Virus record (IMG/VR): IMGVR_UViG_3300031951_000037
Coordinates: 1 to 64,000 of that record
Source: a virus
Length of the DNA: 64,000 bases
Reading direction: 5' to 3' (one strand)
In this document: one piece after another, positions 1-14,700 of the stretch
Position numbering within the stretch: the stretch's first letter is position 1
How the letters are laid out: each line of letters opens with the position of its first letter
Translations under genes and position numbers: made by a program
The notes under the pieces: model-generated
What the model was told of the DNA's origin: nothing
Databases searched by the model: none
What the model saw: the letters and a program-made list of their open reading frames with translations, nothing else

Positions 1-2407
1 CTACACTAACGTTAACATTTCCGTTTGCAGCAGGAATATTGACATTGCTGTTGCCGTTTGCTACTGGACCAATCAAGTTACCAACAGAAGTATTTCCTGA
101 TACAGTCAATGAAGTGAGCGTACCAACGCTAGTAATGTTTGGTTGCGCTGCTGTTGTTACTGTACCTGCTGTAGTTGCTGCGCCACTTAATGCACCAACG
201 AAAGTCGTTGCGGTAATAGAAGCATTGCCTAAGTTAGCACTAATGCCAGTGTTGATTACTGCACTTGAGTTCCCATTAGCACTACTTGTAGTGAATGTGG
301 GATATACTGTTGTTGCTGATGATGTGTTCTGTAAAAGAGCAGAAGCATTAGTTGCTGCTGTAGCACTTGCTACTGCACCGCTGACATTAGCTCCCTGAAT
401 ATTTGCGAGAGTATTTGCATTTAGTCCAGCAGTAAATGTTGAATTCCAAGTACCGCTAGTAATTGTGCCAACGTTTGTAATGTTGTTAGTTACAGCATTT
501 GGAAGAGTTCCGGTAACATTACTTGCTTGCAATGAGCTTAATCCATTACCATTACCAGTAAATACGCCCGTGTTAGCAGTGAAGTTGGGAGCTGTGACAG
601 TTCCACTTACACCTAGTGAAGTTAATGTACCAACACTCGTGATGTTTGGTTGTGCTGCTGTGGTTAATGTACCGGTAAGAAGCGATGCGCCAATAGTACC
701 TGAGTTGGCATAGACGTTGCCTGCGGTTACGTTACCTGTTACTGCAAGAGAAGTTAGAGTACCAACACTTGTAATGTTTGGTTGTGCAGCGGTTGTTACT
801 GTACCAGCAGTGGTTGCGCTAGTAGCTGCACCACTTAATGCACCAACGAAAGTCGTTGCAGTAATAGAGTTGTTTGCTAAGTTTGCACTAATACCTGTAC
901 TAATAACTGCGCTTGAGTTACCATTCGCACTTGAAGTACTGAAAGTGGGGTATACTGTAGTTGCTGCTGAAGTGTTCTGTAAGAGGGCAGCAGCGTTGGT
1001 CGCTGAACCAACAGTACCAGTAACGTTTGCACCAGCAAGTCCAGTCAATGCTTGTCCGTTACCGATAATATTACCGACACGCAAGTTACCATACGTGGTA
1101 AACGTTACGACTTCGTTAGTGAGAGTAGCTACAGATGCAAGACCAAACTCAGCATTACTTACGTCCCAGCCCATAAATGCTATACGAGCAGCAGTATCAA
1201 AATAATTTAAAGCGGTACCAACATCTTTACCTGAGTTGCTTGTCGGTGCAGCACCGTTTGGTCCAGTCTGTAGATTGATGATCGGATCTTCAACAGCCAA
1301 CGTATCAACATTGACATAAGTTAAGTTACCATCAACGGTCAGGTTACCGCTAATAACTGCATTACCGCTTACTGCTAAGTTAGTTAACGTTCCTACTGTA
1401 GTAATGTTTGGCTGCGATGCGGTGGTTAATGTACCGGTAAAGAAATTAGCTGATACTAGATTTGCGCCAGTAATGTTGCCGCCTGTACCCGTACCAACTG
1501 TTAGATTTGCAGCAGTAAGATTGCCCCCGATATTACCGGTACCCGTTACGCTAAGTGAACCAGTAGTAGTAAGATTTCCACCTGACACATTGCCAGTTGC
1601 TGTGATTAACCCAGCAGTACCTAAGTTACCAACGTTAGCGTTGCCAGTAGCATTTAATGTGCCTGCGATATTGACACCGGTACCGGTAACTGTTACAATG
1701 TTTGCATTACCTGATACTGAGACGGTGACGTTGCCGTTTGCAGTTGCAATGTTTAGATTAGAGTTACCATTAGAAACATTAGATACGCTTGTGATAATGC
1801 CAGTTAACTGGCTACCATTACCGATAAAGAAGTTTGCGGAGACATTTCCGTTTGCGTCTCTGACTGCTACCGTATTCGCTGTAGCTGTTTGCGAAGTGTT
1901 GAACCCGTCCAATAAGTCGGCATTCAAGTTAGATACTACTGTATTTGATGAAACTACTAGAGGAGCAGTTCCAGTTGCAATATTACTGATTAATTGAGTA
2001 CCTGAAATATTTCCAGTAGCTATTACTCTACCCGTACCTAAGTTGCCTGTGTTGGCATTACCAGTAGCATTTAATGTACCAGTAATGTTTGCGCCTGTTC
2101 CGGTAATTACAAGAGTTGTATTACCAACTGCGGTAATATTAACATTGCCATTAGCAGCAGGAATGTTGACATTTGAGTTACCGTTTGAAATTCGGTCAGT
2201 GCTAAGTCCAGTTAGCTGACTTCCGTTACCTATAAAAAATGTAGCAGCGACATTACCCGTTGCAGAAATATTTCCAGTTACTGTTAGATCGCCAACCGGT
2301 GACGATGACGTTCTAACCCATGCGGTCTGTGCGCTATCATAGGTATATAGGGTGCCATTGACAGTTGCCTGTTGACCGTTAGTTGGATTTGACGGGAATA
2401 ATGCCAT
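1..2407 (-). CDS. Long repetitive tail fibre protein (3' end outside window)
   Basis: Reads leftward from an ATG at 2407 and is open to the window edge, so at least 802 residues are visible and the C-terminus is missing. The N-terminus (MALFPSNPTNGQQATVNGTL) is of the NPTNGQ-type found at the start of many phage fibre and collar proteins. It is followed by Gly/Asn/Thr/Ala-rich beta modules, including ANGNSNVNIP, NVAGTLNATGNANVGN-like and TTAAQPNITSVGTLTSL units. Around residues 360-430 lies a distinct domain (VDTLAVEDPIINLQTGPNG, then GKDVGTALNYFD and FMGWD) that recurs in structural proteins of T4-like aquatic phages. It lies downstream of the lectin/mini-Cys cassette with its own late-type promoter 26 bases upstream. 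Role inferred: trimeric host-recognition fibre. The exact T4 equivalent is not assignable. Confidence 0.8.
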   Translation of the reverse strand, partial: MALFPSNPTNGQQATVNGTLYTYDSAQTAWVRTSSSPVGDLTVTGNISATGNVAATFFIGNGSQLTGLSTDRISNGNSNVNIPAANGNVNITAVGNTTLVITGTGANITGTLNATGNANTGNLGTGRVIATGNISGTQLISNIATGTAPLVVSSNTVVSNLNADLLDGFNTSQTATANTVAVRDANGNVSANFFIGNGSQLTGIITSVSNVSNGNSNLNIATANGNVTVSVSGNANIVTVTGTGVNIAGTLNATGNANVGNLGTAGLITATGNVSGGNLTTTGSLSVTGTGNIGGNLTAANLTVGTGTGGNITGANLVSANFFTGTLTTASQPNITTVGTLTNLAVSGNAVISGNLTVDGNLTYVNVDTLAVEDPIINLQTGPNGAAPTSNSGKDVGTALNYFDTAARIAFMGWDVSNAEFGLASVATLTNEVVTFTTYGNLRVGNIIGNGQALTGLAGANVTGTVGSATNAAALLQNTSAATTVYPTFSTSSANGNSSAVISTGISANLANNSITATTFVGALSGAATSATTAGTVTTAAQPNITSVGTLTSLAVTGNVTAGNVYANSGTIGASLLTGTLTTAAQPNITSVGTLTSLGVSGTVTAPNFTANTGVFTGNGNGLSSLQASNVTGTLPNAVTNNITNVGTITSGTWNSTFTAGLNANTLANIQGANVSGAVASATAATNASALLQNTSSATTVYPTFTTSSANGNSSAVINTGISANLGNASITATTFVGALSGAATTAGTVTTAAQPNITSVGTLTSLTVSGNTSVGNLIGPVANGNSNVNIPAANGNVNVSV
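399..454. repeat. 56-bp exact repeat, copy 1 (copy 2 at 7937-7992)
   Basis: The 56 bases here are identical to 7937-7992, inside a different fibre gene in the same reading register. They encode the end of one fibre module and the start of the next. The identity at DNA level, rather than only at protein level, suggests recent exchange or duplication between paralogous fibre genes. Confidence 0.85.
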
Positions 2408-2432
2408 TAGTTACTTTTCCTATTATTTTATG

Positions 2433-2448: not shown

Positions 2449-2622
2449 TCACCACTTATTTAATGGGCAAGTTTCTTGTTCCTCTGATGTTAGTATTGAT
2501 ATGGGTATGTTATTTAGAGCGCAATGCGGCCAAGGTTCTTGAATGTTTTCAACGCACATAATACAAATTGATATCCTTTCTTGCTGAGTTGCAGGGTCAA
2601 TATTATTGTGTAAGTCACTCAT
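2449..2622 (-). CDS. 57-aa four-cysteine mini-protein, probable zinc-binding
   Basis: A short gene whose ATG at 2622 overlaps the TGA of the upstream lectin gene (ATGA), a typical translational-coupling arrangement. The 57 residues contain C20-x2-C23, H33-C34 and a terminal C52-P followed by a final Trp. The same layout (CxxC, a third Cys, then C-P and a terminal Trp, with an aliphatic-rich stretch between the last two Cys) occurs in the 77-residue protein at 5026-5259, so the two are paralogues. The spacing suggests a small zinc knuckle. No function is known to me. The position immediately after a lectin-domain gene suggests an assembly factor or accessory subunit, which is inference only. 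Confidence 0.7.
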   Translation of the reverse strand: MSDLHNNIDPATQQERISICIMCVENIQEPWPHCALNNIPISILTSEEQETCPLNKW

Positions 2623-2639
2623 ATACCATACCTTCCTCT
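2616..2639. repeat. 24-bp direct repeat at lectin gene 3' end, copy 1 (copy 2 at 3815-3838)
   Basis: These 24 bases are identical to 3815-3838. Each copy encodes the closing residues of a lectin-domain protein (GRYGI plus stop) and the overlapping ATG of the next gene. The location exactly at gene borders makes it a plausible recombination seam for swapping whole genes. A third, diverged version sits near 5254-5275. Confidence 0.85.
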
Positions 2640-3821
2640 GTAAGCTGCAAAATTTTGAGCTACCTGATCAGCAGTTAGAGCTACATTATAAACTTGTATC
2701 GACCCAATACTTCCTGGAAATTTTGCTGCCCAAGAGCTTCCTATCATGTCAATAGGGTTATTATTTCCTGAAGTAGAGTTTGCAACGTTGCTGTCCAATA
2801 CTCCGTCAACATACATTGCCATTGTACTATTAGAGTTATTGACCCAAGTCAGCATGTGCCAAACGTTATCGTTAACATTGGGTCCTACTCCTAACTTTTG
2901 TGACCAAGCAGAATTTTGATATGTCCAGTATGCAATCTTCCCACTATTTACACACATAGCCGAATAGACCGGACCGCCGCTTTGGTTAGACATGATTGCT
3001 CCTGTCCCTAATGTAGAGGCGTTAGTAGTTGTTTTTACCCAAGCACTAGCAGTCCATGGTAAATTTCCATTTCCTAAACTTATTGTAGGTATAGTTAAGT
3101 TGTCAGTTGTTCCGTTAAAACTAAATGTGTTATTAGATGCATACGTGAGTGCGCCAATTGTAATCGTTCTTCCGCCGGTTAGGTCGGTTAATGCTGTCGT
3201 TGCGCTTCTAGCACCGTATGGTCCAACAAACGGAGCAGTAAAATTACTTGAGGAGGTGACTAATACCTGTGGATTCTTATATAGAATAAATCCGCTAGAT
3301 GCAAGATAAGAAGGATTACATGCGCCGGGGTAAAGCAATAAATTATAACTCTGTGCGCTCGTGACTCCAGACGCTATCGTAGCAGTTTTCCAAACGCCTT
3401 TAATTGTGGGAGTAGGGTCGGCAGCAAATCCACCATTTGGGCCCTCAATATTTGCAAGGTAATTAACCGTAGGGTAATTTGCTGCGTCTGAAGATATAAA
3501 ATAATCAAAGGTAAAAGTTATATACTGTCCCGCTGAAACGGTGATAGCATTTCCATGATAGTAACACCCTTCAGTTGCGGTTAAGTCGTAACGATACACT
3601 ACATCATCATTTGTTATAGTATATCCCCCAAAGGTTCCGGTATATATTCGCTTGAACGTACCGGTTCCTTGTAGTGCGAAGGTAACATCCCCGTTTGCGA
3701 TAGGGGTAGGAATAGCATATTGGTTTGTTACTGCGGCGCCCTTCCAAGACATGATATTATCCATATCATATGCAAAAATCAATCCAGTATTATATAAGTT
3801 AGACCCAGCGACTACACTCAT
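2619..3821 (-). CDS. LamG/ConA-like lectin-domain virion protein (400 aa)
   Basis: The start ATG at 3821 overlaps the TGA of the upstream lectin gene. The first half (residues 1-200) is a beta-rich region (FDYFISSDAANYP and similar). The second half carries a concanavalin A/LamG-like jelly-roll signature: FNGTTDNLTIP, WTASAWVKT, VWHMLTWVNN, MYVDGVLDSN, then GSIGSIQVYNVALTADQV and the ending QNFAAYRGRYGI. The same QNF-x-A-x-RGRYGI ending is shared with the two other lectin proteins in this cluster. Likely a sugar-binding component of the adhesion apparatus. Direct carbohydrate binding is inferred from the fold family. Confidence 0.75.
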   Translation of the reverse strand: MSVVAGSNLYNTGLIFAYDMDNIMSWKGAAVTNQYAIPTPIANGDVTFALQGTGTFKRIYTGTFGGYTITNDDVVYRYDLTATEGCYYHGNAITVSAGQYITFTFDYFISSDAANYPTVNYLANIEGPNGGFAADPTPTIKGVWKTATIASGVTSAQSYNLLLYPGACNPSYLASSGFILYKNPQVLVTSSSNFTAPFVGPYGARSATTALTDLTGGRTITIGALTYASNNTFSFNGTTDNLTIPTISLGNGNLPWTASAWVKTTTNASTLGTGAIMSNQSGGPVYSAMCVNSGKIAYWTYQNSAWSQKLGVGPNVNDNVWHMLTWVNNSNSTMAMYVDGVLDSNVANSTSGNNNPIDMIGSSWAAKFPGSIGSIQVYNVALTADQVAQNFAAYRGRYGI

Positions 3822-3838
3822 ATACCATACCTTCCTCT
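3815..3838. repeat. 24-bp direct repeat at lectin gene 3' end, copy 2
   Basis: Identical to 2616-2639 and in the same place relative to its gene: it spans the last codons of the lectin gene ending at 3818 and the ATG of the next gene. Confidence 0.85.
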
Positions 3839-5026
3839 AGTAGCATTGAAGTTCTGTATTACTTCACTGGCAGAAAGCACCCTGTTATAAACTCTAACTA
3901 TACCGATATTACCATTATAGAAATATCCTCCTGAATTGTAAGACCCTACAGTGATTCCTCCTGAATTAGTTGCTAGTGTTCCGGTAGTAGCAGAATCAGT
4001 TGCTACTTCAACGCCATTAACATAAATTTTCTTTGATCCTGAGGTGTACGTTGCTACAATCTGTGCCCAGCTTGACGTACTAATATTTGACGATGCTGCG
4101 GACAAGGTAGTATATCCTGCACCTACATAAGTTCTCCATTGAATAGCCGTCCCTTCTTGAAATAGTGCGTACTGAGTATTTACCGTACCCTTTTCGAAAA
4201 AGAAACCATTTTGGTTTAGTGAGTTGGTTTTTACCCAAACTTCTACCGTAGGTGTTTGCGTATCTAGTGCAGTATTATTAGGAGATGTAATCACGCTGCT
4301 TGACCCATTGAATCCAAGTGTGCCGTTACTAGCATAGGTTAAGTTGCTAGCGGTGTACGTATTTGTACCTAATGGATCACTAAACACTTGGGTAGAACTT
4401 CTAGTAGTATTAAGGTTAGGCCAAAAGTTTGGACTCAATTGCGTATAGTCTCCGGGCGCCACCATAACTTTGGCTAGATAGAATATATCAGAAACATTGT
4501 ATTGATAGTAGAATGATCTAAACACAATCTGTGCAGTAGTTGCTTGTGTAGTGAACGTGTTCCAAGCCCAAAACCATCCGTCACCCAATGATATTTGTTT
4601 AGCAGTGTCAAATACGCCTGCTTCTGTTACGTAAGTTCCACCAGAAGTATATTCGTACCGATACATAAAGTTAGGGTGTGTATACCCTGATGTACATTTA
4701 TATACGATAGCATAGGTGTAGGTTGTTGATGGACTACATGCAACGTTAGCGTTACCGTTAGTAAAATAAAACTGTTGCATACAACAATAGCTAGTAGAAT
4801 TACTATTATATCCGTTAACGAAGGGCGAAGTTGTTTGTCCTAAGTTAGGAATCATCGTGCTTACGTTACCGGTTGTGTATTCAATATTCACACCGCTAGT
4901 AGCAGTTGGAACAATTGTCTGTGCTAAATTTTGAATTGCAGGGCCATTATAACTGCGTTGGTTACCGGTGTCTATTAAATAAACAAGACCGGCTGATACA
5001 GGTGCAGATCCATTAAACTGTGCCAT
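3818..5026 (-). CDS. LamG/ConA-like lectin-domain virion protein (402 aa)
   Basis: The ATG at 5026 is chosen over an upstream in-frame TTG at 5047. It overlaps the upstream stop as TAATG and has an AAGGA Shine-Dalgarno motif about 8-10 bases before it. It opens with MAQFNGSAPVSAGLVYLIDT. A first beta-domain (residues about 60-190) is followed by a LamG-like domain (LGFNGSSSVI, TVEVWVKTN, AQIVATYTSGSKKIYVNGVE, GNIGIVRVYNRVLSASEV) and the shared QNFNATRGRYGI tail. It sits in a tightly coupled five-gene chain with overlapping start/stop codons, so the products are probably made together. Substrate is unknown. Confidence 0.75.
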   Translation of the reverse strand: MAQFNGSAPVSAGLVYLIDTGNQRSYNGPAIQNLAQTIVPTATSGVNIEYTTGNVSTMIPNLGQTTSPFVNGYNSNSTSYCCMQQFYFTNGNANVACSPSTTYTYAIVYKCTSGYTHPNFMYRYEYTSGGTYVTEAGVFDTAKQISLGDGWFWAWNTFTTQATTAQIVFRSFYYQYNVSDIFYLAKVMVAPGDYTQLSPNFWPNLNTTRSSTQVFSDPLGTNTYTASNLTYASNGTLGFNGSSSVITSPNNTALDTQTPTVEVWVKTNSLNQNGFFFEKGTVNTQYALFQEGTAIQWRTYVGAGYTTLSAASSNISTSSWAQIVATYTSGSKKIYVNGVEVATDSATTGTLATNSGGITVGSYNSGGYFYNGNIGIVRVYNRVLSASEVIQNFNATRGRYGI

Positions 5027-5259
5027 TACCAGTATCCTTCCGGGCAAGCTAATTGAGTAGCAGATATCATTAAATTAATATCAAGCTGTGTTATAGAACA
5101 TTTTGTAATTTCTTCATTAGTTCGGTTCACACAAACGTTACACTTACTGACTCTAAACGCTCTTGTCTGTCTATTGCAAGAGGTATAGTCAGGTGCATCT
5201 GGCTCAGCAATAATTGGCGGGTCATCGCCTTCTGGACGGGGCGGCGTGTCCGGCGTCAT
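5026..5259 (-). CDS. 77-aa cysteine-rich mini-protein, probable zinc-binding
   Basis: The start ATG at 5259 overlaps the stop of the upstream lectin gene, and its TAA overlaps the next ATG. After a Pro/Asp-rich N-terminal 25 residues come C33 (SCNR), then CNVC (C-x2-C), a third conserved Cys (TKCS) and a terminal ACPEGYW. The C-x2-C / C / C-P-x-W layout matches the 57-residue protein at 2449-2622, marking a small paralogous family embedded in the lectin cluster. A zinc-stabilised fold is plausible. The function is not known. Confidence 0.75.
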   Translation of the reverse strand: MTPDTPPRPEGDDPPIIAEPDAPDYTSCNRQTRAFRVSKCNVCVNRTNEEITKCSITQLDINLMISATQLACPEGYW

Positions 5260-5945
5260 ATTCCATAGTTCCTTCTAATTGCATTAAAGTTTTGCTCTAC
5301 TTGTGCCGCAGTCAATACATTATTATATACATGAACGCACCCTAGTTGTGCTAACGTAGCAGTATATGCCGGAAAGAGTTGGATTACTGCACTTCCTCTG
5401 GTTTTTGGTGAGGACACTGTCCCGGTTCCCAGTGAGACGCCATTCACATATGCAGTAGAAGTTGCTCCATTTTTAGTTTGACCAATATAAAACCAAGTAT
5501 TCAGCGCAAACTCTGTTCCAGCAGAACCTAATGAGGTTTGTCCAAAGTCGTTTCCTGAATTAGCAGGATCATATCTCCAATGTATGTAACGTTGTGTAGG
5601 GTATCTCCAAACTCCAGGGGTCCTGTCAGTGCCGCCTGCAGGGTATCCGAAAATTTGATCCCAGCTACCAGACGTACCATTTGGATAAGTTCCAGTTGAG
5701 TTCAGTCTTATAGTAAAGAAAATTGAATGGGTGTCGGTATTTAAAAGAGAAGTGGTGGGAGTATTCCAAGCTACTCCGGAAGCAAGCCCGGTGGCACTTA
5801 AGCCTGACGCACCGGTTGCGTGTAGATTATTTCCACTTACATCAAACCATGTAGTAGTACTTCCAGTGAAGCTTTCAGGGTTGAACACATCCAAGCATAG
5901 ACCCAGATCACTAGCAACTATTCCAGGGTTATACGCAATAGCCAC
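5256..5945 (-). CDS. LamG/ConA-like lectin-domain protein (229 aa)
   Basis: Starts at GTG 5945 (MAIAYNPGIVASDLGLCLDV), with AAGGA about 8 bases upstream and no better ATG nearby. It is essentially a single jelly-roll domain: WFDVSGNNLHATG near residue 40, IFFTIRLNSTG, WFYIGQTKNG, AYVNGVSLGTG, LGCVHVYNNVLTAAQV, and the family ending VEQNFNAIRRNYGI. It lies 10 bases after the giant fibre gene and starts the coupled lectin/mini-Cys chain. It is about half the length of its two paralogues because it lacks their N-terminal beta region. Likely adhesin component. Confidence 0.75.
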   Translation of the reverse strand: MAIAYNPGIVASDLGLCLDVFNPESFTGSTTTWFDVSGNNLHATGASGLSATGLASGVAWNTPTTSLLNTDTHSIFFTIRLNSTGTYPNGTSGSWDQIFGYPAGGTDRTPGVWRYPTQRYIHWRYDPANSGNDFGQTSLGSAGTEFALNTWFYIGQTKNGATSTAYVNGVSLGTGTVSSPKTRGSAVIQLFPAYTATLAQLGCVHVYNNVLTAAQVEQNFNAIRRNYGI

Positions 5946-5955
5946 TTGATATTCC

Positions 5956-8900
5956 TTATCCGTACGTTGCGTTCAAGGTATACCACTGAGTAGATGAAGT
6001 AGAGAAGTACTCTAATCTCGCCCCAGCCGGTTGTGAGTAAGAAGCGTTAGTTGATCCGGAGTTAACTACTGCCCCTGAAGGAGGATATACGTTCAACGCA
6101 TTTGCACTAGTATTTACAATTATAATTCTAGTGCCTGCAGGAACTGTAGGAAGAATTACCCCATTTGCGCCGTTACTAACTGTGCTTACTACGGTAATTG
6201 GTCTAGTTAGTGCAGTTGCAGTACCTTGAGTCGAGCCAGCTCCTGCGGCACCGGTTGTCACACCAAATGAAACAAATCCACCTGATGCTGCTAATTGAAT
6301 ATTACCACCCGAATCAACACTGATCAATGGGACACCAGAAACATCATTTACGGTAAAGATGTTACCGGTCATACTATCTACGATACTGAATAGCTGGCCT
6401 GCGTTTCCATTCCAAGATAGAGTTCCGCCGTTTGCCATTCTTTCAGTAATAGTATTTGAACCATTAGGCGATACATAGGATACATTTGATTGTATAGTTA
6501 CATTTCCGACGAGAGACGTAGTACCGGTTACTGAAAGTCTGTGTGTTGGTGCAGTATTGCCGATACCTACATTACCGTTTGTGTCAACACGCATACGTTC
6601 CGAATTGCCGGCGTAAAAAGTGAGCGGGACAAAACTTCCTGTACCGCGCACTGATGAGATAAATCGTACATCAGTATTGGCAATTACAGCATATTGTCCA
6701 AATTGCCCGTTAGTTATTGCCGGATCGCTTTCCACTGAGAATGCGGCTACTGTACCAGTACCGTTTGGAATCGCATGAACTACCGTATTAGTATTTAAAG
6801 CACTACTTTGGAAAGCGACTCGGCTGTTTACTGTTGCGTTTGAAAAATCTCCAAGTATGCGCTGGCCGGTACTATTAAATGTTAAGTTACCAGATGTTGT
6901 CAGTGAAGTTAATGTACCAGTTGAAGTGATATTAGGTTGGGCTGCGGTTGTTACAGTACCGGCTGTAGTTGCGCTTGCCACTGTACCAGTGACGTTAGAA
7001 CCGGTAACCAACCCGTTCCAAGTTACGTTAGCAGCAGTCTGAGTTATTGAACCTACCGCAGTGTTTGCAGCATTAAAGAACGTCATCATGTTGGTGCCGT
7101 CAGTTGCCGGCTGCATTGCCAAACCGAATAGTGTTCCGCCACCAGTAAACTTAATACCTACTGAACTGCTTGCGCCACCAATCTGAGTATACCCTCCTAT
7201 TTCAAGCGCATTGCTAGTAGAGGTCAAGCTAGCTTTACCCGATACAGTGAGACTTGATAGTGTACCAGTTGAAGTAATATTGGGTTGTGCTGCCGTTGTT
7301 ACAGTACCAGCAGTGGTTGCACTCGTAGCAGCACCACTTAGCGCACCAACGAACGTGGTTGCTGTGATAGAGGCATTGCCTAAGTTAGCACTGATACCTG
7401 TATTGAATACTGCTTGGCTGTTACCATTTGCGCTTGAAGTGGTAAACGTTGGGTATACTGTTGTTGCAGTGCTTGTGTTCTGTAATAAAGCAGCGGCATT
7501 AGTTGCGGCATCTGCGAAACCAGAGTTTGCAACGTTCAAGTTGGCAACACGAGTAGTTGAAGTTACAGTTAGCGGGGCAGTGCCTGTTACAACGTTAGAT
7601 ACTAACGTACTTGCCGTAACTGCTCCAGACACACCTAATGATGTGAGGGTACCTACACTCGTGATGTTTGGTTGTGCTGCTGTTGTTACAGTACCGGCGG
7701 TTGTAGCACTTGTTGCCGCACCTGATAGGGCACCAACAAAAGTTGTAGCCGTAATAGAAGCATTGCCTAAGTTAGCACTGATACCCGTATTGAATACTGC
7801 TGCGCTATTGCCGTTTGCACTAGAAGTGGTGAATGTTGGGTAAACAGTTGTTGCGGTTGATGTGTTCTGTAATAAAGCACTGGCATTCGTTGCAGCAGTA
7901 GCACTTGCTACAGTGCCACTTACATTAGCACCCTGGATATTTGCGAGAGTATTTGCATTTAGTCCAGCAGTAAATGTTGAATTCCAAGTACCAGCAGTAA
8001 TAGTGCCAACATTTGATATCGCATTTGTTACTGAAGTTGGTAATGTTCCGGTGACGTTACTTGCCTGTAATGAAGACAGTCCGTTACCATTACCTGTAAA
8101 TACACCTGTGTTAGCAGTGAATGCTACCGCAGTAACGGTTCCATTAACACCAAGCGAAGTTAATGTGCCGACAGAAGTAATGTTTGGTTGAGCATTGGTT
8201 GTTACTGTACCGGCTGTAGTAGCCGCACCAGATAGAGCACCTACGAAGGTTGTTGCTGTAATAGAGTTATTTGATAGGTTGGCAGTGAGGCCCGTACTTG
8301 TTAGTTCTGATACGTTACCTGTTGCTGCATTTGCAAATACGAGGAAGTTATTTCCTGTTCCAGCAGATGCACTAATAAAATCAGCAACGTTTGCACGGGC
8401 AACATATAAGTTAGGGACTAGTGTGGTACTTGTAACTGTTAAGGGAGCAGTACCTGCCGCGACATTTGAAGTCAGTGTGCTTGCAACTACTGCACCAGCA
8501 GTATTTAAGTTACCTGCGCTCGCATTACCTGTAACAGTAAGTGAGCCAAGCGTACCTACACTAGTAATCTGTGTTTGCGAAGCGTTGACACTAAATGTAG
8601 AACCAGTTAGTGTTAATCCAGTACCAGCATTATATGTACCAGCACCTGAGAACTGAGTAAAGTTAATGTTATTACCAGCAGTACCTATTGCAGTTACAGT
8701 ATCAGTTTGCACCCAACCAGTGTTATCGTACAATGTACCGCCCGTAACGAACACGAAGTCGCCTGCTTCTACTTCAGGTACACTATCATAGTCAGTAGCA
8801 CGAGTAATGACAGTAGCATTACTCCAAGTATAGATACCGTTATGTACTGCGTTTGCTTCGCTTCTAACCAAGATACGAGTACCGGCAGTTTGAACGTTAA

Positions 8901-11706
8901 CGCCATCAATTAAGTTGAATGTTCCAGTAGTAACTAAGTTTGCACCAACTCCACTTGAACCATTGTTGTAGGTGATTGTACCACCGGTGATAGTGGCGAG
9001 TGTCGTAGGTGTTGCTGCTGCAACTGCATCATGAATATTAAGACCTTGTGCAACATCATCAACATATTGCTTAGTGGCTGCATCTGTTGGGTTCGTAGGT
9101 GTAGCAAGATTGATGATCGTATTGCTGGTCATGTCTAAGTTGCCAGCAATACTGCTTACACCTGTGCCTGTTACACTTAGAACACCGGTCGTTGTTAAAT
9201 TACCTGCTGCAACGTTACCTGTAACGCCCAACGAAGTCAATGTGCCGACTGATGTAATGTTTGGTTGTGCCGCTGTTGTTACAGTACCTGCTGTTGTTGC
9301 ACTAGATACAGTACCAGTTACGTTGGCACCTGCAATTGCACTTAGACCACTACCATTACCTGTAATTACGCCAGTGCCAGTATTAAGAGTACCTGCTACG
9401 TTTACGCCAGTACCTGTGACAACAAGAACATTTGCATTTCCTGCTACTGAGATATTGACGTTACCATTAGCAGCAGGCATATTGATGTTTGAGTTACCGT
9501 TTGCATGTGGCCCGATTAAGTTACCAGCTGTAGCATTACCTGATACTGTTAAACTGGTTAGTGTACCAGTTGAAGTAATGTTGGGCTGCGCTGCTGTTGT
9601 TACTGTACCTGCAGTAGTTGCAGCACCACTCAATGCACCCACAAATGTTGTTGCTGTGATACTTGAGTTACCCAAGTTAGCACTGATGCCCGTATTGATG
9701 ACTGCTGAGCTATTGCCGTTTGCACTAGAAGTGGTGAATGTTGGGTAAACAGTTGTAGCAGTGCTTGTGTTCTGTAATAGGGCTGCTGCGTTAGTGGCTG
9801 CTGTAGCACTTGCAACCGTACCTGATACGTTAGCACCCTGAATGTTAGCTAGTGTGTTTGCATTTAGTCCGGCAGTAAATGTTGAATTCCATGTACCGGC
9901 AGTAATAGTACCAACATTTGATATCGCATTTGTTACAGATGTGGGTAACGTTCCGGTGACATTCGCTGCTTGAAGTGAGCTTATACCATTACCATTGCCC
10001 GTAAATACACCTGTGTTAGCGGTGAATGCCACCGCAGTAACAGTTCCGTTTACGCCAAGTGAAGTCAATGTACCTACAGAAGTAATGTTTGGTTGTGCTG
10101 CGGTTGTTACAGTACCAGCAGTAGTTGCGCTCGTTGCGGCGCCGCTTAATGCACCGACAAATGTTGTTGCAGTAATAGAGGCGTTACCTAAGTTAGCACT
10201 GATGCCAGTATTGATAACTGCACTTGAGTTGCCATTAGCACTTGAAGTGGTGAAAGTAGGATATACTGTAGTAGCTGTTGAGGTGTTTTGTAATAGTGCG
10301 GCAGCGTTAGTTGCAGAAGTTGCGCTGGTAGCTGCACCACTCAATGCACCGACAAATGTTGTTGCAGTAATAGAGGCGTTACCTAAGTTAGCACTGATGC
10401 CAGTATTGATAACTGCACTTGAGTTGCCATTAGCACTACTTGTAGTGAATGTAGGATATACTGTTGTCGCAGTGCTTGTATTCTGTAATAAAGCACTAGC
10501 GTTCGTTGCTGCGGTAGCACTTGCTACTGCACCTGAAACATTTCCACCTTGGATATTGCTTAAGTTGCCGCCTTCACCTGATACGTTTGTGAACACCCCG
10601 CGAGTAGCACCAATATTTCCAACGTTAGCGTTGCCGGAAGCGTTTAATGTTCCTGCTACGTTGACACCTGTGCCAGTGACAACAAGGATGTTTGCGTTGC
10701 CAGCTGCGGTGATATTAACATTACCATTAGCAGCAGGTATGTTGACATTACTATTGCCGTTTGCAAATGAACCAGTAATGTTACCGGTTACGTTTGCTAC
10801 AAGATTTCCTGAAATAATCACAGAAGTAGCATTAGCATTGATAGTCTGTGAACCAATATAAATTGTGCTATTTGCTAGATAGATATCTCTGAATCTGTTT
10901 GTATTGTTACCTAAGTCATATGTAATGTTGGCGGTAGGTGTAATATTTCCACTAACTGTCAAACTTGTTAGTGTACCGACGCTTGTAATGTTTGGTTGCG
11001 CTGCTGTTGTTAAAGTTCCACCCAACAATGTAGCTGCAAAGTGTCCGTTTGCGACATTAGCTACGTATGCGGTATTTGAATTTAAAGAATAATATCCGTT
11101 TGCAGTTGATGATATGAAGGTTGGATAATAAGTACCTGTTGTTTGTACATTGTTTAATATTGCGTTGGCGTTTGCAGTAGTAATATTGGGGAAAGCTAAA
11201 GTACTAATATCAACCCACTGTAGCGAAGTTCCGTCATCAATATATTCAAATAGAATACCATTAAATGTGTTGTACCATTGATCACCGGGCTGGGGACTAG
11301 CGGGTGCAGTATTTGCTTGAAATATAGCTCCGGTTAAGCCATACGAACCACGAAAAACTGCATTACTTGTAAAGGTCGCTATGTTTGCGGCGCCATTGAC
11401 ACTTACTACAACATTGCCATTTGCTGTAGGGATTCTAACGTTTGATGTGCCATTTGCGATTGATGTGGCACCAGAGACTGTCTGCCAGCTTAAATTTCCT
11501 GCACCATCAGTTTGTAGATATTGTCCGGCGCTGCCGCCCGTAAGTTTTACGTTACTATTTGAACCTAACGCAACGTTAGCTGCGGCAGTTAGGTTAGCAT
11601 TTCCTGTGACTACGAGATTGGCTGTAGTGGTCGTGTTTGTGGTTGCATCTAATGTGATGTTTCCAGCCGTAAGGCCATTCTTGACGTTAAAGTTTCTAGT
11701 TGCCAC
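5956..11706 (-). CDS. Giant modular tail fibre protein (1916 aa)
   Basis: The start is GTG at 11706. The N-terminus MATRNFNVKNGLT is identical to that of the paralogue starting at 15359 with ATG, which supports this start. The body is built of recurring beta modules: TTAAQPNITSVGTLTSL, LQNTSTATTVYPTFTTSSAN, AVINTGISANLGN and ITATTFVGALSGAATSAT appear many times. A different domain near residues 870-1020 begins with DAATKQYVDDVAQGLNIHDA and includes GTRILVRSEANAVHNGIYTW. It is shared with the 1190-residue paralogue. The C-terminal 120 residues (TRIIIVNTSANALNVYPPSG) are non-repetitive and look like a tip or trimerisation region. Expression is probably late, from the motif at 11734-11744. Probable long fibre for host attachment. 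Confidence 0.8.
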   Translation of the reverse strand: MATRNFNVKNGLTAGNITLDATTNTTTTANLVVTGNANLTAAANVALGSNSNVKLTGGSAGQYLQTDGAGNLSWQTVSGATSIANGTSNVRIPTANGNVVVSVNGAANIATFTSNAVFRGSYGLTGAIFQANTAPASPQPGDQWYNTFNGILFEYIDDGTSLQWVDISTLAFPNITTANANAILNNVQTTGTYYPTFISSTANGYYSLNSNTAYVANVANGHFAATLLGGTLTTAAQPNITSVGTLTSLTVSGNITPTANITYDLGNNTNRFRDIYLANSTIYIGSQTINANATSVIISGNLVANVTGNITGSFANGNSNVNIPAANGNVNITAAGNANILVVTGTGVNVAGTLNASGNANVGNIGATRGVFTNVSGEGGNLSNIQGGNVSGAVASATAATNASALLQNTSTATTVYPTFTTSSANGNSSAVINTGISANLGNASITATTFVGALSGAATSATSATNAAALLQNTSTATTVYPTFTTSSANGNSSAVINTGISANLGNASITATTFVGALSGAATSATTAGTVTTAAQPNITSVGTLTSLGVNGTVTAVAFTANTGVFTGNGNGISSLQAANVTGTLPTSVTNAISNVGTITAGTWNSTFTAGLNANTLANIQGANVSGTVASATAATNAAALLQNTSTATTVYPTFTTSSANGNSSAVINTGISANLGNSSITATTFVGALSGAATTAGTVTTAAQPNITSTGTLTSLTVSGNATAGNLIGPHANGNSNINMPAANGNVNISVAGNANVLVVTGTGVNVAGTLNTGTGVITGNGSGLSAIAGANVTGTVSSATTAGTVTTAAQPNITSVGTLTSLGVTGNVAAGNLTTTGVLSVTGTGVSSIAGNLDMTSNTIINLATPTNPTDAATKQYVDDVAQGLNIHDAVAAATPTTLATITGGTITYNNGSSGVGANLVTTGTFNLIDGVNVQTAGTRILVRSEANAVHNGIYTWSNATVITRATDYDSVPEVEAGDFVFVTGGTLYDNTGWVQTDTVTAIGTAGNNINFTQFSGAGTYNAGTGLTLTGSTFSVNASQTQITSVGTLGSLTVTGNASAGNLNTAGAVVASTLTSNVAAGTAPLTVTSTTLVPNLYVARANVADFISASAGTGNNFLVFANAATGNVSELTSTGLTANLSNNSITATTFVGALSGAATTAGTVTTNAQPNITSVGTLTSLGVNGTVTAVAFTANTGVFTGNGNGLSSLQASNVTGTLPTSVTNAISNVGTITAGTWNSTFTAGLNANTLANIQGANVSGTVASATAATNASALLQNTSTATTVYPTFTTSSANGNSAAVFNTGISANLGNASITATTFVGALSGAATSATTAGTVTTAAQPNITSVGTLTSLGVSGAVTASTLVSNVVTGTAPLTVTSTTRVANLNVANSGFADAATNAAALLQNTSTATTVYPTFTTSSANGNSQAVFNTGISANLGNASITATTFVGALSGAATSATTAGTVTTAAQPNITSTGTLSSLTVSGKASLTSTSNALEIGGYTQIGGASSSVGIKFTGGGTLFGLAMQPATDGTNMMTFFNAANTAVGSITQTAANVTWNGLVTGSNVTGTVASATTAGTVTTAAQPNITSTGTLTSLTTSGNLTFNSTGQRILGDFSNATVNSRVAFQSSALNTNTVVHAIPNGTGTVAAFSVESDPAITNGQFGQYAVIANTDVRFISSVRGTGSFVPLTFYAGNSERMRVDTNGNVGIGNTAPTHRLSVTGTTSLVGNVTIQSNVSYVSPNGSNTITERMANGGTLSWNGNAGQLFSIVDSMTGNIFTVNDVSGVPLISVDSGGNIQLAASGGFVSFGVTTGAAGAGSTQGTATALTRPITVVSTVSNGANGVILPTVPAGTRIIIVNTSANALNVYPPSGAVVNSGSTNASYSQPAGARLEYFSTSSTQWYTLNATYG
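7937..7992. repeat. 56-bp exact repeat, copy 2 (copy 1 at 399-454)
   Basis: Identical over 56 bases to 399-454, which lies in a separate fibre gene. The shared block covers a module boundary. Confidence 0.85.
10148..10437. repeat. In-frame tandem module duplication (two exact 95-bp copies, 195-bp period)
   Basis: The 95 bases at 10148-10242 recur exactly at 10343-10437. The offset of 195 bp is 65 codons, so the duplication preserves frame. The sequence between the copies is similar but diverged from the sequence after the second copy. This is a recent expansion of one fibre module in a gene already made of such modules, consistent with slippage or recombination-driven length change. Confidence 0.85.
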
Positions 11707-11733
11707 AGTTCCATATATCCCTGTTGTTATGTG

Positions 11734-11744
11734 TATTTATTTAT
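11734..11744 (-). promoter_or_regulatory. T4-late-type promoter (double ATAAATA)
   Basis: The minus strand reads ATAAATAAATA, two overlapping copies of the late motif, 28 bases before the GTG of the 1916-residue fibre gene. It directly follows the hairpin at 11746-11779, giving a terminator-then-promoter layout between two fibre genes. Confidence 0.6.
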
Positions 11745-11745
11745 T

Positions 11746-11779
11746 GCCTGCCCAAATCGTATTAAACGGTCGGGCAGGC
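11746..11779 (-). terminator. Hairpin after fibre gene, possible terminator
   Basis: An 8-bp perfect stem, GCCTGCCC with GGGCAGGC, separated by 18 bases, lies just after the stop of the 1190-residue fibre gene on the minus strand. There is no clean T-tract, since the stem is followed by AATAAATAAATA, so intrinsic termination is uncertain. The hairpin could instead stabilise the 3' end of the message. Confidence 0.5.
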
Positions 11780-11786
11780 TGTATTA

Positions 11787-14700
11787 TTAAATCTGTATGT
11801 AACTAGAAACAACATTCACTCTTACGTTTGCACCAATGTTAGATGCATATAGAGAAACGTTTCCTGAGACACCATTGATATTTGCACTCAAGTTAACGAT
11901 TTCACTTGAAACGTTTGAACTGATAGAACCGTAAATAGTAATGTAAGCATCTGAGCCGTCGTGTACTAGCAGTGTTTCAATTGACTGGAATCCAAAATCT
12001 CCAGATGCACTGATAACATATTTGGCTGTTCTAAACGTTGAAGGAGCAAACTGATCAATTACAGTGTTAGTACCTACAGAAACGTTTGCTCTACTGCTAG
12101 TTAATCCGCCACTGACACGAACATTACCGGATGAAACGTTACCAGATACTGTGAGTGAACTCAGTGTACCCAAGCTTGTAATGTTCGGCTGTGCAGCAGT
12201 CGTTAACGTACCAGTTAATAGGCTTGCACCGATCGTACCTGCGTTTGCATAGACATTACCAGCAATTACGTTTGCGGTAACTGATAAATTACTTAATGTA
12301 CCAACACTTGTGATATTTGGCTGTGCTGCTGTTGTTAAAGTACCAGTTAGTAAGCTTGCGCCAATTGTACCTGAGTTAGCATAGACGTTGCCTGCGGTGA
12401 CGTTTGCAGTGAATACACCAGCTGCCGCGCCGAGGTTACCAACATTAGCATTACCTGTAGCATTCAATGTGCCTGCTACGTTAATTCCAGTACCCGTGAT
12501 TACTACTACGTTGGCATTGCCCGCCACATCAAAGTTAATATTTCCGTTTGCAGCAGGAATATTAATATCTGAGTTGCCGTTTGCAAAAGTACCAATAAAG
12601 TTACCAGCGGTGACGTTGCCTGTTACTGCTAGTGAAGTGAGAGTACCAACACTTGTAATATTAGGCTGAGCGTTTGTAGTTACAGTACCAGCAGTTGTAG
12701 CTGAACCAGCTGTACCTGCTGTAGCAACGTTCAAGTTTGCAACTTGAGTAGTTGATGTTACGACAAACGGAGCAGTACCAGTTGCAACGTTACTGATTAA
12801 TTGCGGTGCTGTTACGTTAGCACTTGCAAGGACTTGAGCGGTACCTAAGTTACCAACGTTAGCATTACCAGTAACATTTAGTGTACCAGCTACGTTAACG
12901 CCGGTTGATGTTGCAACCATTCTTGCAGTAGCGTTACCTGTAACAAATAGTGATATGTTACCGTTTGCAGTGAGGGTAATATTTGAGTTACCGTTCTGTA
13001 ACAAACCACTGTTGATCGTAGTGATGTTACCGGTTGTGAATACACCAGTGGTTGCGCCAATTGTACCTGAGTTAGCATAGACGTTGCCTGCCGTTACGTT
13101 ACCAGTAACACCCAATGATGTTAGTGTACCAACACTCGTAATATTTGGCTGTGCAGCAGTTGTTAACGTACCAGTTAATAGTGAAGCGCCAATTGTACCT
13201 GAGTTAGCATAGACATTGCCAGCAGTAGCGTTTCCAGTAACAGATAGCGAGCCAAGTGTACCAACGCTAGTCAAGCTTGATGTTACAATTGACGAGTTAA
13301 GAGTGGTACCGGTCAAGTTAGCTGCGTTTGCTGTAATAGCTACGTTAGCAGCGGCAGTTAGCTGACCTTGACTGTTAACACTAAATGTAGCGACCCTATC
13401 ACCGTTGCCGTATGAGCCAGAAACTACCGTAGTGTTAGAGATACTAAACTCTAGGTTTGGAGATAGCGTTAGTCCGGTGCCAGCAGTATAGTCTTGAGTA
13501 GCACTGAACTGTGAGAATGTGATGTTCGTTGTACCAAACGTAATTGTACCAACAGTAGAAACAATCCAAGAAGTGTTGATATTGTCTGTACCGCCAGTAA
13601 CAAAGAACAAGTCGTTTTGACCTAGTGCGTCTGGATCAGCAGCACCATACGTATCAGCATCAGTTGAACGAGTGATAGTTGTAGTGTTTGAGTAGGTGTA
13701 AATACCGTTATGTGCAGCGTTAGCTTCGTTCTTGACAAGAATACGAGTACCAACTGTTTGTACGTTTGCACCGTCAATTAAATTGAAAGTACCAGTTGTG
13801 GTAAGAGTTGCACCTACACCACCTGTACCGTTGTTATAAGTGATTGTGCCACCAGTTGCTGTAGCCAATGTTGTAGTAGTTGCAGCGGCAACAGCGGGGT
13901 GAACAGAAATACCAGTTGACACCAGTGTATCAACATATCCCTTAGTAGCAGCATCGCTTAAGTTAAACGGAGTCTTTACGTTAGTAATGTATGCACTGTT
14001 GGCATCAATGTTACCTGTACCATTTGGCTTTAGGTTGATATTAGTGTTTGTACCAGCGGAAGTAATAGTTAGTGCACCGGTACGTCCAATAATATTATCA
14101 GAAACTAAGTTAGCACTAGAAGTAACGTTGCCTGTTGCAATTACTTGGCCAGCAGTACCAAAGTTGCTAGCGTTGGCGTTGCCAGTAGCATTTAGTGTAC
14201 CTGCTACGTTAACGCCAGTTGCAGTGACTACAACAACGTTAGCAGTGCCAGCAGCACTAATATTAACATTGCCGTTTGCAGCAGGAATATTGACGTTGCT
14301 ATTGCCGTTTGCTAAAGCACCAATGAAGTTACCTGATGTAGTATTACCAGAAACTGAGAGACTTGTTAGTGTACCGACTGAGGTGATGTTTGGTTGTGCA
14401 GCAGTTGTTACCGTGCCTGCTGTTGTTGCTGATCCGGCAGTTGCAGCATTCAAGTTTGCAACTTGTGTAGTTGAGTTGACGACAAGAGGAGCAGTACCGG
14501 TTGAAACGTTTGAGATTAGCTGAGGTGCTGTTACGTTAGCACTTGCGAGAACTTGTGCGGTACCTAAGTTACCAACGTTTGCGTTACCAGTTACGTTAGC
14601 AGTACCTGCTACGTTCATACCAGTTGAAGTAATAACAACTTCATCAGGTGTACCGGTAGCTGATAGACTGATATTACCGTTAGCAGTAATAGTGATGTTA

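Follow-up and report, generated by a model that had tools for sequence, protein, structure and literature searches.

A five-gene cassette of a T4-like phage, encoded in the opening 64 kb of a viral record of 126,519 bp (this whole stretch of analysed DNA is referred to as the window), combines three LamG/ConA-like lectins with two small cysteine proteins, here called minis. Profile comparisons place the minis as divergent, reduced four-Cys members of the PHROG 13558/DUF6171-like family. Their association with lectins across viruses is real but loose, and it is not obligate. Tentatively, and with not quite even confidence, we propose that the minis are small metal-binding, non-virion accessory factors for adhesin maturation or assembly, a reading that is favoured over those in which they are functionally unlinked passengers, virion subunits, or accessories of modifying enzymes.

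The lectin array and its gene joints

The virus is a T4-like myovirus, as shown by matches to PHROGs 138, 213, 77, and 100 among its major head, portal, and SbcCD-type proteins. The cassette lies on the minus strand between positions 5945 and 2449 and comprises, in order, lectin 1 (5256–5945, 229 aa, GTG start), mini 2 (5026–5259, 77 aa), lectin 2 (3818–5026, 402 aa), lectin 3 (2619–3821, 400 aa), and mini 1 (2449–2622, 57 aa). Successive genes are joined by ATGA, TAATG, ATGA, and ATGA overlaps; all of the open reading frames are present, and their order and joints are as the initial annotation described. For lectin 2, the ATG at 5026 is preferred over the TTG at 5047 given in the list of open reading frames, which is an unlikely start. 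Repeat-rich probable fibre genes occur on both sides of the cassette. The one directly upstream (5956–11706, minus strand, 1916 aa) has weak matches to tail-fibre PHROGs, and the one downstream (1–2408, minus strand) extends past the start of the window.

The cassette lectins are LamG/ConA-like phage adhesins filed under Laminin_G_3, and their glycan binding is putative. Lectins 2 and 3 match this domain well above the 27.6-bit cut-off (E 4.4e-24, 85.8 bits and E 1.6e-18, 67.7 bits, respectively), and lectin 1 falls marginally under it (E 9.5e-6, 26.3 bits). Matches to PHROG families of virion structural proteins were also found for the cassette lectins, including one between lectin 1 and phrog_8510 (E 2e-9). 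The AF2 model of lectin 2 (pLDDT 85.6) is a ConA-like beta-sandwich with a second beta-rich region inserted after the first strand of the sandwich, and it ends in a helix (residues 386–400) that holds the motif QNFNATRGRYG. Fold matches in the PDB include sialidase lectin domains, domain 4 of the arabinanase AbnA, laminin LG domains, and clostridial neurotoxin binding domains, the last of which have only the generic lectin fold in common with lectin 2.

All three lectins end in the shared C-terminal motif that had been pointed out before (QNFNAIRRNYGI, QNFNATRGRYGI, and QNFAAYRGRYGI in lectins 1, 2, and 3). At the end of lectin 3 (2619–2642, minus strand), the codons AGA GGA AGG TAT GGT ATA TGA precede the ATG of mini 1 and form an embedded ribosome-binding site while also encoding RGRYGI. 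We examined such ends in 120 lectin loci, collected by scanning IMG/VR for a DNA pattern of lectin C-termini that took no account of minis. Together with the ends from the window and from its close relatives, the sample holds 225 distinct lectin ends, of which 126 are followed by a gene that begins at ATGA or TAATG. The Shine–Dalgarno sequence GGRAGR occurs within RGR[YF]G ends at 92 of 99 overlapped joints versus 25 of 74 non-overlapped ones (p=4e-17), whereas no bias is seen for another glycine codon of that tail, which served as a control (p=0.2). The conserved C-terminal codons of the lectins thus also provide a ribosome-binding site for the following gene, irrespective of what that gene is.

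These overlaps and the shared lectin C-terminus are array-wide features rather than lectin/mini-specific ones. Each mini does start where a lectin gene stops, which had been taken as a sign of pairing, but the same holds for most genes that follow lectins; because the Shine–Dalgarno sequence is embedded regardless of the next gene, a start at the lectin stop is no signature of a lectin/mini pair. A function of the shared C-terminus as a mini-docking signal was also considered and rejected, since the same motif ends lectins that precede lectins, other genes, or nothing, and the codons used for it vary with whether the following gene overlaps. The cassette can be described as a modular adhesin array in which the end of each LamG-type lectin gene encodes the C-terminal helix and tail (QNFNAxRGRYG) and at the same time supplies the Shine–Dalgarno sequence of the following gene. 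Given self-contained sites of this kind, array genes can be gained, lost, and reordered without loss of translation, and the embedded ribosome-binding site is a simple account of how arrays could be rearranged while expression is retained.

The small cysteine proteins

A profile whose sole input was minis from other viruses, none of them in the near clade of this virus, matches exactly two of the 1290 six-frame segments in the 126.5-kb record. These are mini 1 (E 2.2e-9) and mini 2 (E 7.7e-8), and the next best segment has an E value of 0.3. The C-x2-C, lone C, and CP..W that the two proteins were originally reported to share are present in both, and the profile scores exclude chance as the explanation. 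Mini 1 also matches phrog_13558 directly (E 5.7e-4), a profile match that makes it a member of this family. Mini 2 has no direct PHROG match, and neither a tblastn search against phages nor a scan of viral contigs returned a match to it; it is placed only by profile methods, through the profile whose members match phrog_13558. Among 39 collected relatives of the minis, 37 match phrog_13558 and 29 match DUF6171 (E<=0.01); neither mini of the window reaches the Pfam cut-off for DUF6171 (PF19668).

The full form of the family is R...C-x2-C...C-x2-C-x-C...CPxxxW. C1, C2, C3, and C6 occur in all 39 sequences, and C4 and C5 in 30–31 of them. The minis of the window do not have the complete six-Cys pattern (C-x2-C...C-x2-C-x-C...CP): both are without C4 and C5, and both keep the other four cysteines, along with the R before C1, the CP, and the terminal W or F in alignments. 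A single metal site composed of C1, C2, C3, and C6 is plausible. The AF2 model of mini 1 is confident (pLDDT 88.6) and has an N-terminal helix and short strands. Most of the proteins in BFVD that resemble it in fold, with TM scores up to 0.84, are uncharacterised proteins of phages. The fold search matched no solved structure in the PDB, and a sequence search against the PDB returned only zinc ribbons at chance level. Among relatives, mini 1 has a dN/dS of about 0.06–0.17, and this purifying selection indicates that it is a real gene.

A scan for the mini family found at least 600 viral stretches versus one match in 84,980 species genomes, so this form of mini is essentially viral. The system had been proposed as a possibly undescribed one. 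That applies to the function and does not apply to the family, which is already in databases as PHROG 13558 and DUF6171; our literature search found no paper mentioning DUF6171. Unannotated minis also occur in the deposited genomes of cyanophages S-B64, syn9, and S-MbCM6 (L018:3998-4183, L019:4019-4180, and L022:3992-4180). Two other members carry labels that we consider unsupported, namely 'DNA-directed RNAP' for P-SS2 gp085 and 'RNA polymerase-like protein' for S-CBS2 gp034 (GU936714 28283-28702). Each consists of an N-terminal extension and a mini domain, and the labels look like misannotation spread via the Cys motif.

Association of the minis with adhesins

The survey of co-occurrence called for by the initial annotation found lectin–mini neighbourhoods in numerous viral contigs that are unrelated to one another, with minis enriched directly after lectins. 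Of 15 distinct minis in the 120 lectin loci, 10 are directly downstream of a lectin, a position held by 252 of 1036 genes (24%) in the background (binomial p=6e-4) and, among other small genes, by 42 of 366 (p=7e-7), in tests that ignore kinship among loci. Because the greedy gene caller missed several minis, these motif-based counts are given alongside the count from the gene caller only, by which five of nine minis follow a lectin versus the same 42 of 366 other small genes (Fisher p=0.002). One contig (L132) carries three different minis (1752-1955, 2475-2720, and 11679-11891, plus strand), two of them directly after lectins, which suggests repeated acquisition or duplication.

The stronger claim, that the mini is a required partner of the lectin, did not survive the survey, because the observation named in the initial annotation as refuting it, minis found independently of lectin genes, was made. 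Many phages have minis with no such lectin adjoining, and 21 of 27 sizeable lectin-array contigs, which are incomplete, are without a mini, which indicates that the mini is not generally required for LamG lectins. The number of minis per contig is usually one to three, and lectins are more numerous. What stands of the proposed small zinc-binding partner is the recurring neighbourhood, the enrichment after lectins, and the plausible metal site; the minis are neither required by the lectins nor matched to them one to one. When L004:1409-2593(+) is compared with its relatives at window:2619-3821(-) and L005:4802-6004(+), the lectin appears to have had its LamG half alone exchanged, whereas its N-terminal half and the mini that follows were kept. 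The LamG half of this L004 lectin is 33–35% identical to those of its relatives, versus 70–76% for the N-terminal half, and the L004 mini is 93% identical to that of L008. The mini is thus not tied to any one receptor-binding domain.

The survey also bears on the main rival to an accessory role, which we regard as possible but doubtful: that minis are autonomous small phage proteins, functionally unlinked to lectins, and are host-takeover, regulatory, or enzyme-accessory metal-knuckle proteins that land in insertion-tolerant joints with a Shine–Dalgarno sequence and an overlap. The many contexts without lectins, the commonness of mini-less lectin arrays, and the tolerance of array joints to insertion all agree with such hitch-hiking, as does the presence in lectin arrays of a second, unrelated family of small proteins. 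Against it, minis are by either count found after a lectin at a higher frequency than other small genes, and they are coupled to other types of adhesin as well. The second family (~78–117 aa, motif ETSADTVRxSVDGTKTFVKW...EGPYT..EIL) was found in no fewer than 15 lectin-array loci, and in several of these it immediately follows a lectin gene (L010:457-726(+); L041, L043, L049, L053, L060, L062, L065, L066, L080, L083, L092, L104, L115, and L123). It has no Pfam match and only a weak match to phrog_35320.

In Roseobacter phage CRP-143, a mini follows a glycine-rich (Gly_rich_2) adhesin, to which it is coupled by a 4-nt overlap, and in two other loci (L196 and L230) coupled minis follow proteins with weak similarity to GP38 adhesins. 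S-CBS2, S-SCSM2R, and P-SS2 have other members of the family close to tail-fibre genes. Contexts without adhesins include clusters of small genes in Rhizobium and Stenotrophomonas phages, as well as the oxygenase neighbours and the glycosyltransferase fusion described below.

The P-SS2 member bears on whether minis are part of the virion. This protein, ORF085 (gp085, NC_013021 72530-73087), carries the mini domain in a longer polypeptide of 186 aa. In the virion proteome of this phage, ORF085 yielded 0 peptides (PMC2784084), whereas the flanking ORF084 (2613 aa) and ORF086 (1846 aa) yielded 43 and 45, respectively (PMC2784084), and smaller neighbours of 66 and 89 aa were detected (PMC2784084). 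This disfavours the suggestion that minis attach lectin subunits in the virion, although a single undetected protein is weak as negative evidence, and the absence of this longer relative need not extend to the minis of the window. A mini that is a virion subunit, for example a metal-stabilised clip or tip fixing lectins to the fibre, would fit its position among structural genes, the strictness with which R, the four Cys, and W/F are conserved, and the fact that small metal-knuckle proteins can be structural. The P-SS2 result, the excess of lectins over minis within contigs, and the existence of lectin arrays without minis weigh against such a subunit, and we judge it decidedly unlikely.

In several cyanophages, 2OG-Fe(II) oxygenases adjoin minis. 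A 475-aa GlcNAc-type glycosyltransferase (PF11397, E 7e-26; L158:2407-3834(+)) is fused to a C-terminal DUF6171-like mini domain. Both arrangements are as expected if the mini were a targeting or cofactor domain for fibre- or glycan-modifying enzymes such as these. We nevertheless consider this very unlikely, as most minis stand alone and the proteins scanned near the cassette of the window include no recognisable enzyme of this kind.

A possible accessory role and comparison with known systems

The accessory role in adhesin maturation or assembly is supported by homology, by the recurrence of minis after lectins, by their coupling to other adhesin types, by the absence of the P-SS2 member from virions, by the embedded Shine–Dalgarno sequence, by the four-Cys core common to all relatives, and by the retention of the mini in L004 despite the exchanged LamG domain. 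We would count against it the non-adhesin contexts, the array contigs without a mini, which are the majority, and the fact that gene position is no proof of function. Under this model, a mini would be made by coupled translation beside its client, would fold around its single metal site, and would act during infection as a non-virion helper in the maturation or assembly of receptor-binding adhesins. It might act less on the exchangeable LamG domain of the adhesin than on the conserved N-terminal half. A broader and somewhat unlikely extension is that PHROG 13558/DUF6171-like minis constitute an unrecognised, phage-wide class of metal-dependent, non-virion adhesin maturation factors, whose clients have unrelated folds (LamG lectins, glycine-rich, and GP38-like proteins) and whose four-Cys form is specialised for LamG arrays. 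The family, which is functionally uncharacterised, occurs at least several hundred times in viral contigs. The reproducible link to adhesins, together with one virion proteome that lacks a member, makes it a testable candidate for adhesin biogenesis, a process that decides host recognition by phages.

Both components of the cassette have relatives among known phage proteins. The minis share a fold and the motif R, C-x2-C, C, CP..W with the uncharacterised small phage proteins of PHROG 13558 and DUF6171, and differ from them in the absence of the second knuckle (C4 and C5). The lectins resemble phage virion proteins with Laminin_G_3 domains (PF13385; phrog_8510 and phrog_24074), in which a LamG domain likewise occurs with a conserved C-terminal QNFNAxRGRYG helix, and LamG proteins of this type are annotated as virion structural proteins in cyanophages. 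In the cassette, the lectins are separate tandem genes of 229–402 aa with coupled translation, in contrast to C-terminal domains of large baseplate proteins.

In gene arrangement, the closest likeness is to tail-fibre chaperones, such as T4 gp38 and gp57A, Mu Tfa, Alteromonas phage V22 gp27, and cyanophage Pam3 gp25 (PMC9608196), in which a small gene is directly downstream of that for the receptor-binding protein. The minis occupy a chaperone-like position, with ATGA overlaps with lectins and enrichment after them. They have no match to known chaperone families in Pfam, PHROG, or NCBIfam, and they are Cys-rich proteins of 57–77 aa with LamG lectins as putative clients, whereas the chaperones are about 20 kDa. 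The receptor-binding protein of V22 needs gp27 in order to function, but gp27 does not stay with the mature fibre (PMC7289586). If the proposed model holds, the minis would work like fibre chaperones such as V22 gp27 and Pam3 gp25.
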